A stretch of 64,000 nucleotides of DNA from Bacteriovoracaceae bacterium. GTDB lineage: Bacteria > Bdellovibrionota > Bacteriovoracia > Bacteriovoracales > Bacteriovoracaceae. Below, one piece after another: positions 54,471-58,952 of the stretch. The stretch is from assembly GCA_947441615.1 (NCBI GenBank), contig CANEUH010000014.1, positions 1-64,000 on the forward strand, given 5' to 3'. A program made the translations under genes and the position numbers. The notes under the pieces are model-generated. The model made no database searches. It was not told where the DNA came from and saw only the letters and a list, made by a program, of their open reading frames with translations. Within the stretch, counting starts at the first letter, position 1. The number at the start of each line of letters is the position of its first letter.

Positions 54471-54707
54471 ATGGAAAACACTACTGCTTTCGTTGTTCTA
54501 GCTGCTGCTATCGCTTTCGCTTCTGCTGTTATCGGTGGAACAATGGCACAAGGTAAAGCTGCTTCAGTTGCTCTTGAAGGTATCGCTCGTAACCCAGCTG
54601 CTGCTGAAAAACTTCAGACTCCAATGATTCTAGCTCTTGCTCTTATCGAGTCTCTTGTTCTTTTCGGTTTCGGTATCGCATTCCTTATCTTAGGAAAAGC
54701 AGCTTAA
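54471..54707 (+). CDS. atpE: ATP synthase c subunit
   Basis: 78 residues, two helices joined by the polar loop EGIARNPAAAEKL. The ion-binding glutamate is in ALALIESLVLF; a glutamine lies in helix 1 (MAQGKAAS) 13 residues before the loop arginine. This Q plus E-S combination resembles the Na+-binding c ring of Ilyobacter tartaricus, but without the Thr and Tyr. Codon use is strongly biased, fitting a highly expressed gene. The terminator behind it has been interrupted by an insertion sequence. Confidence 0.96.
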   Translation: MENTTAFVVLAAAIAFASAVIGGTMAQGKAASVALEGIARNPAAAEKLQTPMILALALIESLVLFGFGIAFLILGKAA

Positions 54708-54729: not shown

Positions 54730-54741
54730 AAGAAGGGCCCG
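54730..54741. terminator. Left half of the disrupted atpE/uvrA bidirectional terminator
   Basis: AAGAAGGGCCCG. Its perfect complement CGGGCCCTTCTT lies at 56140-56151 on the other side of the insertion sequence. Joined through the remaining TTTT they would make a 12-bp stem with a 4-nt loop. Confidence 0.85.
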
Positions 54742-54744
54742 TTT
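54742..54744. repeat. Left target-site duplication TTT
   Basis: TTT, repeated at 56136-56138. The 3-bp size fits IS3-family elements; in an all-T tract the exact edges are ambiguous by one base. Confidence 0.6.
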
Positions 54745-54787
54745 TGATCTGAGCCCCAAATTTCGGACATTAAATTAAACGAGACTA
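54745..54787 (+). repeat. Left terminal inverted repeat of the IS
   Basis: Compared with the right end read in reverse, the first 13 bases are identical and the inner block AAACGAGACTA is also identical; the A/T-rich middle is diverged. Confidence 0.9.
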
Positions 54788-54812
54788 CCCCAGAAATGGG
54801 GTATTCTTTTTT
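54786..54812 (+). terminator. Inward-facing terminator at the left end of the IS
   Basis: TACCCC and GGGGTA form a 6-bp stem around AGAAAT, followed by TTCTTTTTT. It would stop transcripts entering from atpE before they reach the transposase start. Confidence 0.75.
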
Positions 54813-54825
54813 AAAGAGGTCCCAA

Positions 54826-55248
54826 ATGTCTAAGTTCCCTGAAAAAGTTCGTAAAATTCTTGAATCGAGTCCTTTTGTACAAAAAGTTACTGGTTCTCAA
54901 GTTCTGTTCACATCCGAATTCAAGATTAAAGCAGTTGAATTGAATCTTGAGGGCGCCAGCCCTCAAGACATCTTCAATCGTTTAGGAATTGATACAGCAC
55001 TGTTTTTACCAGATTTTCCTAAGAAATCTGTCTCCCGCTGGAGAAAGATTTACGAAACCTTAGGAGAGGAAGGTCTAAAAGAAGAACGCAGAGGTAGAGG
55101 GTCAACAGGTAGACCGAAACGTTCTTTTGACCCTTCTAATCCCGCTTCGCTTTTAGAGCGGATTGCTTACCTCGAAGCGGAGAACTATATCTTAAAAAAG
55201 CTCGAAGCCTTGGCGGCCAAACACGAAAAGAAGAAAGGTTCGAAGTAG
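54826..55248 (+). CDS. IS3-family transposase OrfA
   Basis: 140 residues from ATG 54826, which has AGAGGT upstream; ATG 54796 lies in the terminator hairpin and is less likely. Contains a helix-turn-helix (FKIKAVELNLEGASPQDIFNRLG) and a C-terminal leucine-rich coiled coil (ASLLERIAYLEAENYILKKLEAL), as in OrfA of IS3/IS150-like elements. It ends in a Lys-rich A/G tract where the frame shifts by -1 into orfB. Confidence 0.9.
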   Translation: MSKFPEKVRKILESSPFVQKVTGSQVLFTSEFKIKAVELNLEGASPQDIFNRLGIDTALFLPDFPKKSVSRWRKIYETLGEEGLKEERRGRGSTGRPKRSFDPSNPASLLERIAYLEAENYILKKLEALAAKHEKKKGSK

Positions 55249-56108
55249 TTGCTAAGGCAAAGAAGATTAATCCTCAGTGCTCTACTGCTGTACTCTGCGA
55301 TTTTGCGAATGTCACACCCAGTGGTTTTTATAGTTGGATCAATAGACCTATGGCGGAGATGTCTATTGATGAAAAAGTAATAATCGATCTCTTTAATAAG
55401 AGCAAAGGTAAGCTAGGTATTCGCCGACTTAAGATGGCGTTTGAGAGGGATAGAAAGAGGCTGATCAATCATAAGAAAGTGAGACGCATTAAAAAGGCAT
55501 TCAACTTGGTAACTGTTATTCGAAAGAAGAATAAGTTTAGAGCAATCTTCAAGACAGGTGAAGAAAGTAAAGTTGCTGCGAATTTAGTTCAAAGACAGTT
55601 CTATCCACCGAAGGAAGGAATCATTCTGTCGACCGATATGACCGAACTCCGGTACTCTTTTGGTCAGAAAGCTTATCTCTCAGCAGTAAAGGATCTAAGG
55701 ACAAAAGAGATTGTAACATATTCACTAAGTCCGAATCCAACGATTGAACTTGCGATAGGGAAACTATCTGAGGTCTTATCTCGGCATCCAAAATCAGTGA
55801 GAGAAAGAATTATTATTCATTCTGACCAAGGCGGACAATACTGTAGTCCGCAGTACCTCGGAGTATTAGAAAATTTAAATGTTACGGCTTCAATGTCCAG
55901 GAAAGGAAACTGTCTTGATAATGCCCCAATTGAGAGTTTCTTTGGTCATTTTAAAGATGAAGCCGAATATAAACACTGTAGGAACTTCCGAGAACTGAAA
56001 AATTGTGTGCGTACTTATATGAATTATTATAATAATGAAAGACCCCAATGGGGGTTAGAACGAAAAACCCCTGCCGAAGCAGGGGTTAACAATAGTCTCG
56101 TTTCTTAA
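55242..56108 (+). CDS. IS3-family transposase OrfB (DDE integrase)
   Basis: The open frame enters from within orfA in the -1 frame; the residues before Met at 55350 (FEVVAKAKKINPQCSTAVLC, NVTPSGFYSWINRP) match the usual IS3 OrfB start, so it is most likely made as an OrfAB fusion by frameshifting near the AAAAGAAGAAAGG tract (55226-55238). The start given here marks the frame entry, not a start codon. DDE residues: ILSTDMTELRY, IIHSDQGGQY and CLDNAPIESFFGHFK. Nothing is truncated. Confidence 0.9.
   Translation, partial: EVVAKAKKINPQCSTAVLCDFANVTPSGFYSWINRPMAEMSIDEKVIIDLFNKSKGKLGIRRLKMAFERDRKRLINHKKVRRIKKAFNLVTVIRKKNKFRAIFKTGEESKVAANLVQRQFYPPKEGIILSTDMTELRYSFGQKAYLSAVKDLRTKEIVTYSLSPNPTIELAIGKLSEVLSRHPKSVRERIIIHSDQGGQYCSPQYLGVLENLNVTASMSRKGNCLDNAPIESFFGHFKDEAEYKHCRNFRELKNCVRTYMNYYNNERPQWGLERKTPAEAGVNNSLVS
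56066..56087 (-). terminator. Inward-facing terminator at the right end of the IS
   Basis: On the minus strand AACCCCTGC, loop TTCG, GCAGGGGTT followed by TTT: a 9-bp stem with a stable UUCG loop and a U run. It would stop transcripts coming from uvrA. It overlaps the last codons of orfB. Confidence 0.75.
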
Positions 56109-56135
56109 ACTGTCCGATTTAAGGGGCTCAGATCA
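56093..56135 (-). repeat. Right terminal inverted repeat of the IS
   Basis: Reverse complement begins TGATCTGAGCCCC, identical to the left end for 13 bases, with AAACGAGACTA at the inner edge. Confidence 0.9.
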
Positions 56136-56138
56136 TTT
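56136..56138. repeat. Right target-site duplication TTT
   Basis: TTT, matching 54742-54744 on the other side. Confidence 0.6.
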
Positions 56139-56139
56139 T

Positions 56140-56151
56140 CGGGCCCTTCTT
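56140..56151. terminator. Right half of the disrupted atpE/uvrA bidirectional terminator
   Basis: CGGGCCCTTCTT, overlapping the first base of the uvrA stop codon and followed by TATTGTTTT. It is the exact complement of 54730-54741. Confidence 0.85.
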
Positions 56152-58952
56152 TATTGTTTTAAAATTTTCGAGAGGTACTTTCCAGTGTGAGAAGTCTTGG
56201 TCTTTGAGACAGCTTCCGGTGTCCCCTCGGCCACAATTAGTCCCCCACCCTTCCCGCCTTCTGGTCCCAAATCAATCACCCAGTCCGCTGTTTTAATCAC
56301 GTCTAAGTTGTGCTCAATAATAAGTAGTGAGTGACCCTGATCAATGAGTTTATTGAGTGCCTTTAAAAGGATTTTAATATCTTCAAAGTGAAGACCCGTG
56401 GTTGGTTCATCTAGAACATATAAGGTTGAACCTTTTACTGATTTTGAAAGCTCTCGAGAGAGTTTTAATCTTTGTGCTTCACCACCCGATAGAGTCGTGG
56501 CCGGTTGACCTAGTTTTATATAACCAAGGCCCACGGCATTTAACACTTTGAGGGCCCTGTTGACCTTAGGATGATTTTCAAAAAAGGGCTCGGCCTCTTC
56601 TATCGACATCGCGAGTACGTCAGCGATATTTTTCCCGCGGTAAAGGATGGAGAGAGTTTCGTTATTGTATCGACTCCCTCTACATTCAGAACAGGTGACG
56701 TAAACATCAGGAAGAAAATGCATTTCAATTTTTAAAACACCATTACCTTCGCAAGTTTCACATCTTCCACCTTTAACATTAAAAGAGAAGCGACCAGGCT
56801 TATAGCCTCTAACTTTTGATTCATTTGTTTGAGAGAAAATATTTCTTATATCGTCAAATAGACCAGTATAAGTCGCGGGATTGGAGTGAGGTGTTCTTCC
56901 AATCGGAGATTGATCAAGTTCAATGAGACTCTGGATTTTATCTACCCCAGAAATTGATCGGTAGTTCGCCTGGGAACCCCGTCTGCCACGGGAGAGATAA
57001 TTTTTTATCGCTGGAATGAGAACTTTGTGAATGAGTGTCGATTTCCCAGAACCAGAGACACCGGTAATACACGTTAATCCCCCGAGGGGTAATTTAAGAG
57101 TGACGTCTTGGAGGTTATGTTCCCGAGCTTTTTCTAGGACAATATAATCATTAAGCTTTCTTCGGTTTTCAGGAATTTCAATTTTAAGTTCTTTAGAAAG
57201 ATATTTACCCGTAATACTTTTTTTGGTTTTAATAATTTCCGCGGGTGTACCTGCTGCAACGATCTCCCCTCCGTGAATTCCCGCTTTGGGACCCATATCA
57301 ATTAAATAATCTGACGCCATCATGGTGTCTTCATCGTGTTCAACAACCAGGACAGTATTTCCTATATCTCTTAGATCAATCAGGGTTTTAATGAGTTTTT
57401 CATTATCTCTCTGATGAAGACCAATACTTGGCTCATCTAAAACATAAAGAACACCGGAAAGGGCCGAACCAATTTGAGTTGCTAGTCTTATACGTTGGGA
57501 TTCCCCTCCAGACAAAGTCATCGCGTCTCGATTAAGAGTGAGATAATTAAGTCCCACGTTTAAAAGAAACTTAAGTCGATCTCTCACCTCTTTAAGAACT
57601 TTTTGCGCAATAATGGCGCGGTTACCAGTGAATTCTAGTTGATCAAAAAAGAGTGCAGCATCGGCGATGGATAAATCACAAATATCCATAATGGATTTGT
57701 CTTGAATTTTAGCAGCCAAGGCAAAGGGGTTAAGCTTTTTACCATGGCAAGAAGGACATTTTTTTATGATCATGTACTCTTCAAGGTCAGCTCTGGTTTT
57801 TTCAGATTCAGACTCATGATATTTTTTTTCTAACCAAGAAGTGATTCCTGGAAATTCTTTTTTAAAATTCCAAGATGAATTTTCTGATTCAAATTTGTAA
57901 TTATAGATCTTATCTGAGCCATCATAAAGAATGGTTTTAAATTTATCAGATAATTTAGAAAATGGTTTTTCGAGATCTGTTTTTTCAGCTTCGGCCACCG
58001 AGCGGACCATCTGCATGAGAAAGGTATTTTTCTTTAATACCGGAATTGCCCCCTCTTCAAGTGAGAGATTCTCGTCAAAAAGAATCGAATCAAAATCAAA
58101 TTTTTTCGAGATTCCTAGCCCGTTACAAACGGAACAAGCTCCAAGAGGTGAGTTAAATGAAAAGAGCCTTGGCTCTAAGTCAGGGTAACTCTTCCCAGTC
58201 TTAAAAGAATAGTTTTTTTCTGAGAAAAAATGTTCCTTGTCGTCAGAAAGAACCACGAGATATCCATCAGATAACTTTAGCGCCTGTTCAATTGAATCTG
58301 TTAAACGTGAATTGATCCCTTCTTTCATCACGACACGGTCAATAATGATATCAATGTTATTAAATTTAGACTTATTAATTGCGAGAGTATCCTCAAGATT
58401 TAAGATGTCACCATTAAGTCTTATGCGGGAAAATCCCATGCTTTGGTATTTCGCGAGTTCTTCCTTGTGCTCACCTTTTTTCGAACGAATAACTGGCGAG
58501 AGAATTTGTAGTTTTGAACCCGCTTTAAATTTTAAAATAGAATCCACAATTTGTTGGGGAGTCTGTTTGGCGACTTTTTCACCAGATTCTGGACAGTAGG
58601 CATCACCAAGTCTGGCATACAATAATCTCAGGTAATCATAAATTTCAGTAATCGTTCCAACGGTTGAGCGAGGATTTTTGGTTGTGGATTTTTGGTCTAT
58701 GGCAATTGCTGGGGAAAGGCCCGTGATACTTTCAACCTCGGGTGCCTCAATTTGCCCAATGAATTGTCTCGCATAGCTAGAGAGTGATTCAATGTAGCGT
58801 CTTTGTCCTTCAGCATAAATGGTGTCAAAGGCAAGTGATGATTTTCCGGAACCCGAGGGACCCGTAATAACAGTTAATGAATGACGAGGAAGTGAAACAT
58901 CTACGTTCTTAAGGTTGTGTACCTTGGCCTTGGTGACTTGAATTTTTTCCAT
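56151..58952 (-). CDS. uvrA: UvrABC excinuclease subunit A
   Basis: 933 residues, the damage-sensing double-ABC ATPase of nucleotide excision repair. First Walker A GPSGSGKSSLAF near residue 33; signature LSGGESQRIRLA; second Walker A GVSGSGKSTLIH; signature LSGGEAQRLKLSREL. Zinc modules include CSVCNGLG, CPSCHGKK and CEGNGVLKIEM...CSECRG. Its 5' end overlaps pdxA by 44 bp. Confidence 0.98.
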   Translation of the reverse strand: MEKIQVTKAKVHNLKNVDVSLPRHSLTVITGPSGSGKSSLAFDTIYAEGQRRYIESLSSYARQFIGQIEAPEVESITGLSPAIAIDQKSTTKNPRSTVGTITEIYDYLRLLYARLGDAYCPESGEKVAKQTPQQIVDSILKFKAGSKLQILSPVIRSKKGEHKEELAKYQSMGFSRIRLNGDILNLEDTLAINKSKFNNIDIIIDRVVMKEGINSRLTDSIEQALKLSDGYLVVLSDDKEHFFSEKNYSFKTGKSYPDLEPRLFSFNSPLGACSVCNGLGISKKFDFDSILFDENLSLEEGAIPVLKKNTFLMQMVRSVAEAEKTDLEKPFSKLSDKFKTILYDGSDKIYNYKFESENSSWNFKKEFPGITSWLEKKYHESESEKTRADLEEYMIIKKCPSCHGKKLNPFALAAKIQDKSIMDICDLSIADAALFFDQLEFTGNRAIIAQKVLKEVRDRLKFLLNVGLNYLTLNRDAMTLSGGESQRIRLATQIGSALSGVLYVLDEPSIGLHQRDNEKLIKTLIDLRDIGNTVLVVEHDEDTMMASDYLIDMGPKAGIHGGEIVAAGTPAEIIKTKKSITGKYLSKELKIEIPENRRKLNDYIVLEKAREHNLQDVTLKLPLGGLTCITGVSGSGKSTLIHKVLIPAIKNYLSRGRRGSQANYRSISGVDKIQSLIELDQSPIGRTPHSNPATYTGLFDDIRNIFSQTNESKVRGYKPGRFSFNVKGGRCETCEGNGVLKIEMHFLPDVYVTCSECRGSRYNNETLSILYRGKNIADVLAMSIEEAEPFFENHPKVNRALKVLNAVGLGYIKLGQPATTLSGGEAQRLKLSRELSKSVKGSTLYVLDEPTTGLHFEDIKILLKALNKLIDQGHSLLIIEHNLDVIKTADWVIDLGPEGGKGGGLIVAEGTPEAVSKTKTSHTGKYLSKILKQ

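Follow-up and report, generated by a model that had tools for sequence, protein, structure and literature searches.

IS3-family elements of the IS150 subgroup mostly sit in hairpin loops and probably replace host terminators with inward terminators of their own

In a stretch of 64,000 nucleotides from a Bacteriovoracaceae bacterium (contig CANEUH010000014.1, positions 1 to 64,000; hereafter the window), an insertion sequence (IS) of the IS3 family lies in the loop of a hairpin between the convergent genes atpE and uvrA. Most usable insertions of related elements are likewise centred on hairpin loops, a habit that is absent from the other IS3 elements examined. We put at about three in four the probability that members of this subgroup insert into the loops of palindromes, mostly intrinsic terminators, and substitute for them inward-facing terminators of their own. 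A broader proposition, towards which we lean with more reserve, is that terminator exchange is the way of life of the whole IS3 subgroup, which spans at least two phyla. In other words, terminators would be found by their shape and cut in the loop, and two inward substitutes would be supplied, one of them antisense within the last codons of the transposase, where base pairs and amino acids would covary.

The element measures 1,391 bp (54745-56135), starts with TG and finishes with CA, and is bordered on both sides by a target-site duplication (TSD) TTT, whose left copy (54742-54744) comes from a TTTT loop and whose right copy occupies 56136-56138. Its inverted ends, IRL (54745-54787, tip TGATCTGAGCCCC) and IRR (56093-56135), are 43 nt long and 79% complementary, the outermost 13 bp being perfect. 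Outside the duplications stand the two arms of one hairpin, AAGAAGGGCCCG (54730-54741) and CGGGCCCTTCTT (56140-56151), each of 12 nt, 100% complementary and 1,398 nt apart. With the IS and a single TTT taken out in silico, the arms form a stem of 12 bp closed by a TTTT loop, on which the two host genes converge: atpE (54471-54707, + strand) ends 22 bp ahead of the left arm, and uvrA (56151-58952, - strand) shares with the right arm its terminal position 56151, where the uvrA stop codon finishes on the opposite strand. A preliminary description of the window had claimed both the position of an IS3 element in the loop of the atpE/uvrA hairpin and the stem-loop obtained by its excision; the former was confirmed, with exact arm coordinates, and the latter reproduced. 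Judged by its sequence, a G+C-rich stem-loop followed by a T tract, the split target is a predicted intrinsic terminator. The restored hairpin reaches a score of 11.2, for which p=0.0014 when other positions of its locus serve as background (the floor for about 700 sampled positions); of 20,100 host positions from all loci used, 0.18% lie in the loop of a hairpin scoring at least 10.

The same site can be observed without the element. A search with atpE in 26 genomes of the genus, including the window's own, gave a match in 25. The nearest genome, G008, has 97% DNA identity over the atpE query and no IS at the site; downstream of atpE it carries AAGAAGGGCCCG-AAAA-CGGGCCCTTTTTTATT (right side also given as CGGGCCCTTTTTT), an unsplit and normal-looking terminator. 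Since G008 has the same arms without the IS, the insertion is probably younger than the split between the two lineages. A stem-loop is present 3' of atpE in all 23 of the other same-genus loci folded, G008 included, with arms and loops that vary, and a T tract, read by eye, follows it in 21 of these 23 (not in L114 and L130). Relatives free of the IS do possess a terminator-like structure here, as the preliminary description requires. The loop itself reads TTTT in the window and AAAA in the G008 empty site (L113), and one right-arm base also differs from G008, giving the window's arms their perfect pairing; this looks like a loop inversion or a quasipalindrome correction, before the insertion or with it. 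That the flanking palindrome is an artefact, being part of the IS ends or the product of a misassembly, could be suspected of a window taken from a 40-contig assembly. This is ruled out by near-identical IS copies that sit in different palindromes in two one-contig genomes (G183 and G015) and by the G008 site, where the arms exist without the IS.

The window's own genome contains a single copy of the element, and target choice was therefore tested on relatives. A first count of stem pairs in predicted folds proved too loose, with a null of about 30% at 6 pairs, and was replaced by a strict and then by a tolerant rule. The strict rule asks for an ungapped stem scoring at least 5.5 around a loop of 3-9 nt that takes in 2 nt or more of the TSD. 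By this rule a loop hairpin surrounds 19 of 20 usable insertions in the window's group (A, with TGATCTG ends, from the window's phylum), 9 of 15 in the group with TGAACT...CCC ends (B), 25 of 38 in the IS1447-like TAAAATGTACCC group (C) and 28 of 44 among IS150-proper relatives outside E. coli (D), in total 81 of 117 in the wider IS150 subgroup. A hairpin followed by an A- or T-rich tail is found at 18/20, 8/15, 25/38 and 28/44 of these insertions, respectively, the tail being present at 79 of the 81 strict matches; the corresponding values are 0/8 for the E. coli elements and 0/9 for the rows set aside as other IS3 elements. For comparison, hairpin and tail occur together at 0.81% of the 20,100 host positions, and in the non-coding DNA of the same loci (10,104 positions) the hairpin is found at 3.9% and the hairpin with tail at 2.4%. 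The tolerant rule, an antiparallel match of the two 26-nt flanks that allows asymmetric arms (score 6.5), recognises 91 of 117 insertions as against 2.5% of 8,040 positions. The preliminary description had proposed a terminator-seeking IS; the 19 insertions in loops out of 20 in its own group speak for that proposal, copies at unrelated sites devoid of a hairpin being the exception there.

The set-aside rows show no hairpin by either rule (0/9). Specifically, these nine rows stand for eight distinct sites, L022 and L175 being one site, and four of them (L173, L175, L184, L185) were added by hand. Three more, L151, L203 and L205, were placed among the controls by hand after their flanks had been viewed; the tree later put L151 and L203 on the IS150 side, and L205, which has the same ends as L203, hence belongs there too. 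The true outgroup thus consists of six rows and five distinct sites, none with a hairpin. A second control came from the class to which G371 (a Lysinibacillus) belongs, where 50 loci of another IS3 group supplied 12 usable sites, none of them with a hairpin; an end finder based on strong inverted repeats had yielded one usable site, end motifs read from its output yielded the 12, and seven of these come from one genome (G459). L203 and L205, both insertions of the same IS from Bacillus sp. FJAT-49736 (ends TGATATTGTACCC), have the common flank ATC|CG[CT]TAT[TC]TGTGACAAAA and no strict hairpin, and a sequence-defined target seems likely for this IS.

Relatives were collected by protein searches that gave matches in 15/192, 9/129 and 14/368 genomes for the window's relatives, class and phylum, respectively (stated E-values, overlapping sets). 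Further sources were GTDB contigs (the best 80 of 357), chosen genomes, plasmids (13 of the 60 matches listed, chosen by eye for variety), E. coli (10 of the 40 listed, chosen likewise) and a search with E. coli InsK in the class of G371, which matched 35 of 299 genomes. Inverted repeat and TSD were the only criteria used to place element ends. From 230 elements with proposed ends, 130 usable sites were obtained after dropping 45 without a TSD of at least 3 bp, 20 at a contig edge or N, 12 with unlike ends or length and 23 duplicate sites; eight loci were never given ends. Two of the elements without TSD, L004 and L146, are flanked by half-terminators, on both sides and on the right side respectively, as after recombination between IS copies lying in different terminators.

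An insertion pattern of this kind might also be produced with no target choice, if the IS inserted anywhere and selection spared just those copies that had landed in terminators, between convergent genes. As many as 96 of the 117 insertions lie outside open reading frames (ORFs) of at least 80 aa, and few non-coding places are less harmful than terminators. Even so, we regard survival alone as highly improbable: the few per cent of non-coding positions that carry a loop hairpin contrast with the 81 of 117 insertions, selection for gene integrity would not centre insertions on a symmetry axis, and the other IS3 group has no hairpin at any of its 12 sites. Among 91 sites with a hairpin score of at least 6 within about 25 nt, 52 insertions fall exactly on the axis (offset 0) and 75 within 2 nt of it, and in 59 of the 81 strict matches the TSD is contained wholly in the loop. 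Moreover, the IS copies of one genome differ by 0-3 bases and yet have different flanks, a strict palindrome being present at 6/7 sites of G183, 5/5 of G015, 6/8 of G381 and 7/8 of G618. Because near-identical copies have different flanks, the palindrome is the target and not part of the IS, and target choice is visible in recent insertions, which argues against survival alone. Spread without breaking genes, also put forward in the preliminary description, is plausible.

As for what is recognised, no common sequence could be found by eye in arms, loops or TSDs. Arms vary between sites, even those of near-identical copies within a genome, in a manner unlike that of a target belonging to one family of repetitive extragenic palindromic (REP) sequences, and insertion on the palindrome axis in many copies is the behaviour of a hairpin-targeting IS such as IS1397. 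In addition, the insertions L032, L033, L040 and L109 lie in palindromes of the GGGAC...GTCCC type that have no clear T tract and may represent a palindrome repeated in Bacillaceae. In view of the missing common sequence and of these palindromes without a clear T tract, symmetry or an extruded hairpin, rather than letters, would be what is recognised. Immediately to the left of the insertion at the locus L147 (about 845-900), and adjoining the terminator struck, is a long palindrome that bears T and A tracts and seems perfect. Alternatively, the transposase could be drawn to the terminating transcription complex, with its paused RNA polymerase, RNA hairpin and U-tract hybrid, instead of a DNA palindrome. 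The tail present at nearly all strict matches would suit this explanation, as would the lack of orientation bias among the 81 strict matches (29/26/26), which fits bidirectional terminators but equally any symmetric target. It is nevertheless unlikely, as palindromes without a clear T tract (L032, L033, L040) also serve as targets and as related IS3 elements use REP palindromes, which the available part of the source describes as not specific terminators (PMC1525189).

The second component of the proposal concerns hairpins carried by the elements themselves. Neither these hairpins nor the fact that much of an IS3 subgroup has the loop-insertion trait in common had been noticed in the preliminary description. 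In the window, two terminator-like hairpins point inward, and the same scan lists five terminator-like sites against 1.6 expected. The left one (54786-54813, + strand) reads into the IS from atpE and consists of a hairpin of 7 pairs (54786-54803) with the tail TTCTTTTTTA. The right one (56056-56087, - strand), AACCCCTGC-TTCG-GCAGGGGTT with 9 pairs (stem 56087-56066) and a T tail, reads into the IS from uvrA and is antisense, inside the 3' codons of orfB. Among 82 distinct elements of groups A to D, inward terminators are predicted on the left in 59 and on the right in 67 (left 5/9, 10/14, 25/29 and 19/30, right 9/9, 13/14, 21/29 and 24/30 by group). The same rule finds them in 18/534 (left) and 13/534 (right) host stretches and in 0/11 control elements, although L151 and L203 among the latter are on the IS150 side by the tree.

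The right hairpin covaries. Right ends of 79 elements were aligned; three of the 82 segments (L186, L187, L216) were left out by eye, none with the usual right hairpin, and the covariation count is for this reason slightly favoured. RNAalifold proposes 13 pairs, 11 of them with compensatory change, and in a 16-pair helix 91.9% of the alignment cells are paired. Cells changed on both sides number 242, compared to 67.8 (standard deviation 6.4) in shuffles and 29-89 in slid controls, counts that kinship of the rows can inflate. On an antisense RNA reading of the helix, G-U accounts for 189 cells and A-C for only 22; therefore the antisense strand, entering from the right flank, seems to be the folding one, a skew to which codon constraints could add.

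It may be asked whether the end hairpins act as terminators for the neighbours at all. They could instead shield the transposase gene from read-through, or be by-products of inverted-repeat symmetry and codon choice. The exclusion of outside transcripts is a known theme among IS, and in groups B, C and D many elements use IRL as the first arm of the left hairpin, as would suit a by-product. Shielding is nonetheless compatible with terminator exchange, as any terminator placed to protect the IS stops the transcript of the neighbour as well, and a mere by-product agrees poorly with a right hairpin that covaries above shuffles and slid controls and that, in the window, is listed as terminator-like on the antisense strand only. 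Taken together, we consider these alternatives rather unlikely.

In the mechanism of terminator exchange that we propose, a fusion protein, OrfAB, would be produced by a -1 frameshift and would most likely read the hairpin shape or twofold symmetry of the target instead of its letters. Its cut, with a stagger of 3-4 bp, would fall on the loop, and the insertion would split a bidirectional terminator. The inward hairpin inside each end of the element would then stop the atpE and uvrA transcripts within the IS, and one terminator would be swapped for the element's two. With the neighbours' transcripts still stopped, insertion should cost the host little, a low cost that might explain the success of these elements; their own terminators may let them spread without disturbing adjoining genes.

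Several results weigh against this proposal. Loop specificity is not absolute, because 36 of the 117 insertions fail the strict rule and 26 of the 117 the tolerant one, and 21 of the 117 are inside a predicted ORF of at least 80 aa. The E. coli elements IS150 and ISKpn8 give 0/8 by both rules (L180 scores 5.0, the threshold being 5.5), and L151, L203 and L205 lack a strict hairpin in spite of their place on the IS150 side; a severe count of the subgroup, with the eight E. coli sites and these three odd members, is 81/128. Only one copy exists in the window's own genome. With regard to the inward hairpins, the rule applied to the 82 elements had been widened to larger loops after the folds were viewed. 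The first, narrower rule gave 44/82 on the left and 70/82 on the right, a right match in 1 of 7 controls, 5 left and 7 right matches in 134 host stretches, and 5 and 11 in as many stretches inside the IS. By the widened rule, the left inward terminator is missing in 4 of the 9 distinct elements of the window's group and in all three E. coli IS150/ISKpn8 elements; the right one is present in 3/3 of the latter. Finally, pairs with any two-sided change are 14 of 16, little more than the shuffle mean of 11.7 (standard deviation 1.0), and 2 of 500 shuffles reach as many.

The remaining features place the element within its family. Pfam rve and HTH_21 matches and an NCBIfam IS3 transposase match of 223 bits (cut-off 160) assign it to IS3. 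The orfB frame (55200-56108, + strand) contains a DDE transposase with D96, D159 and E195 in a 252-aa ORF, thus with the spacing D-62-D-35-E and a lysine seven residues after E, the 35-residue spacing and a K or R at that place being IS3 hallmarks. It overlaps orfA (54826-55248, + strand), whose start was picked by a ribosome-binding-like site and which has HTH_Tnp_2 and weaker HTH matches on the ORF read from 54796. In the overlap, the slippery heptamer A_AAA_AAG (55194-55200, + strand), in frame as TTA AAA AAG, predicts a -1 frameshift leading to the 427-aa OrfAB, an arrangement in keeping with the IS3 family. TG...CA ends and a TSD of 3-5 bp likewise agree with IS3: the TSD measures 3 bp in 97, 4 bp in 19 and 5 bp in 1 of the 117 insertions, a TSD of at least 3 bp having been the entry condition. 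Among the plasmid matches listed, OrfB is 36.7% identical to IS150 and 38.0% to ISKpn8. In a tree of 72 rows (long branches, midpoint root, at most 18 rows per group), groups A to E together with L203 and L151 fall on one side of a starred branch and six other IS3 rows on the opposite side, the window's element being found with IS150 and IS1447-like elements. On these sequence grounds the element is a member of the IS3 family, IS150 subgroup in a broad sense. OrfA is longer than in other IS3 groups (124-185 aa in most members of A to E, 95-129 aa in controls), with lengths that overlap the controls (110 in B and C) and outliers above 400 aa; that the extra length of OrfA acts as target chooser is a guess. 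Of the host genes, atpE (subunit c of the F0F1 ATP synthase) was assigned from its ORF and from NCBIfam ATP synthase c families, all under their cut-offs, and uvrA from its ORF and a profile match.

For most IS it is an open matter how a DDE transposase selects its target when it has no sequence preference; here the target appears to be defined by structure and open to tests with simple palindromes. If true, the proposal would explain how near-identical IS copies accumulate mostly outside genes and would make insertion sites predictable. One and the same DNA stretch would serve as transposase codons and antisense terminator, and terminators in genomes and in synthetic circuits would be insertion hot spots.

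Hairpin targeting by IS3 elements and terminator targeting by IS1272/TnSha1 are both already known. According to the available part of one report, IS1397, ISKpn1 and ISPsy8, all of the IS3 family, insert into REP palindromes; the insertion point of ISPsy8 is the axis on which a predicted hairpin is symmetric, and its direct repeat measures 3 bp, while the target choice of IS1397 and ISKpn1 is ascribed to the transposase (PMC1525189). These elements resemble the window's subgroup in family and in insertion at the hairpin axis; compared by description, IS1397 and ISKpn1 target one REP family, whereas the subgroup studied here hits unrelated palindromes, mostly terminators. Group C, assigned to IS1447 by its ends alone, is like the IS1447 group as far as that paper's available text describes it, with two ORFs of IS3 type, TA-type ends (TAAAATGTACCC) and repeats of 3-4 bp; this text makes no mention of terminators as targets, and the neighbours in its Table 1 are often pseudo or hypothetical genes (PMC6211511). 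A large IS survey, in its available part, presents terminators as motifs contained in the IS or created by it (PMC9208149). No report of terminator targeting by IS150-type IS3 elements was found among the titles and abstract openings of the open-access papers listed (in three cases 25 of 344, 25 of 1,103 and 12 of 521 matches), ISfinder and subscription journals being outside this scope.

Within the subgroup, group D is about 40-59% identical to E. coli InsK and forms one starred clade with E. coli IS150, whose copies are mostly found by hok-type genes near a small hairpin and in 0 of 8 cases in terminator loops. In particular, IS150 or ISKpn8 lies beside hok-type toxin-antitoxin genes in 11 of 13 E. 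coli records, often near such a hairpin (L168, L177, L180, L258-L262, L264, L265, L267). Outside the IS3 family, IS1272 and TnSha1 belong to IS1182. From what the available text of their description states, they use hairpin targets without sequence specificity, 5 of 7 being confirmed terminators by RNA sequencing, and they cut bluntly in the stem, with partial deletion of the stem-loop and no target duplication (PMC4923244). The window's subgroup is unlike them, as it cuts in the loop, duplicates 3-4 bp and keeps both arms; in the window itself, the TTT duplication and both 12-nt arms are present. A comparable choice of landing site is that of group IIC introns, which also use intrinsic terminators but, as RNA-based retroelements, insert beside the loop and not within it.

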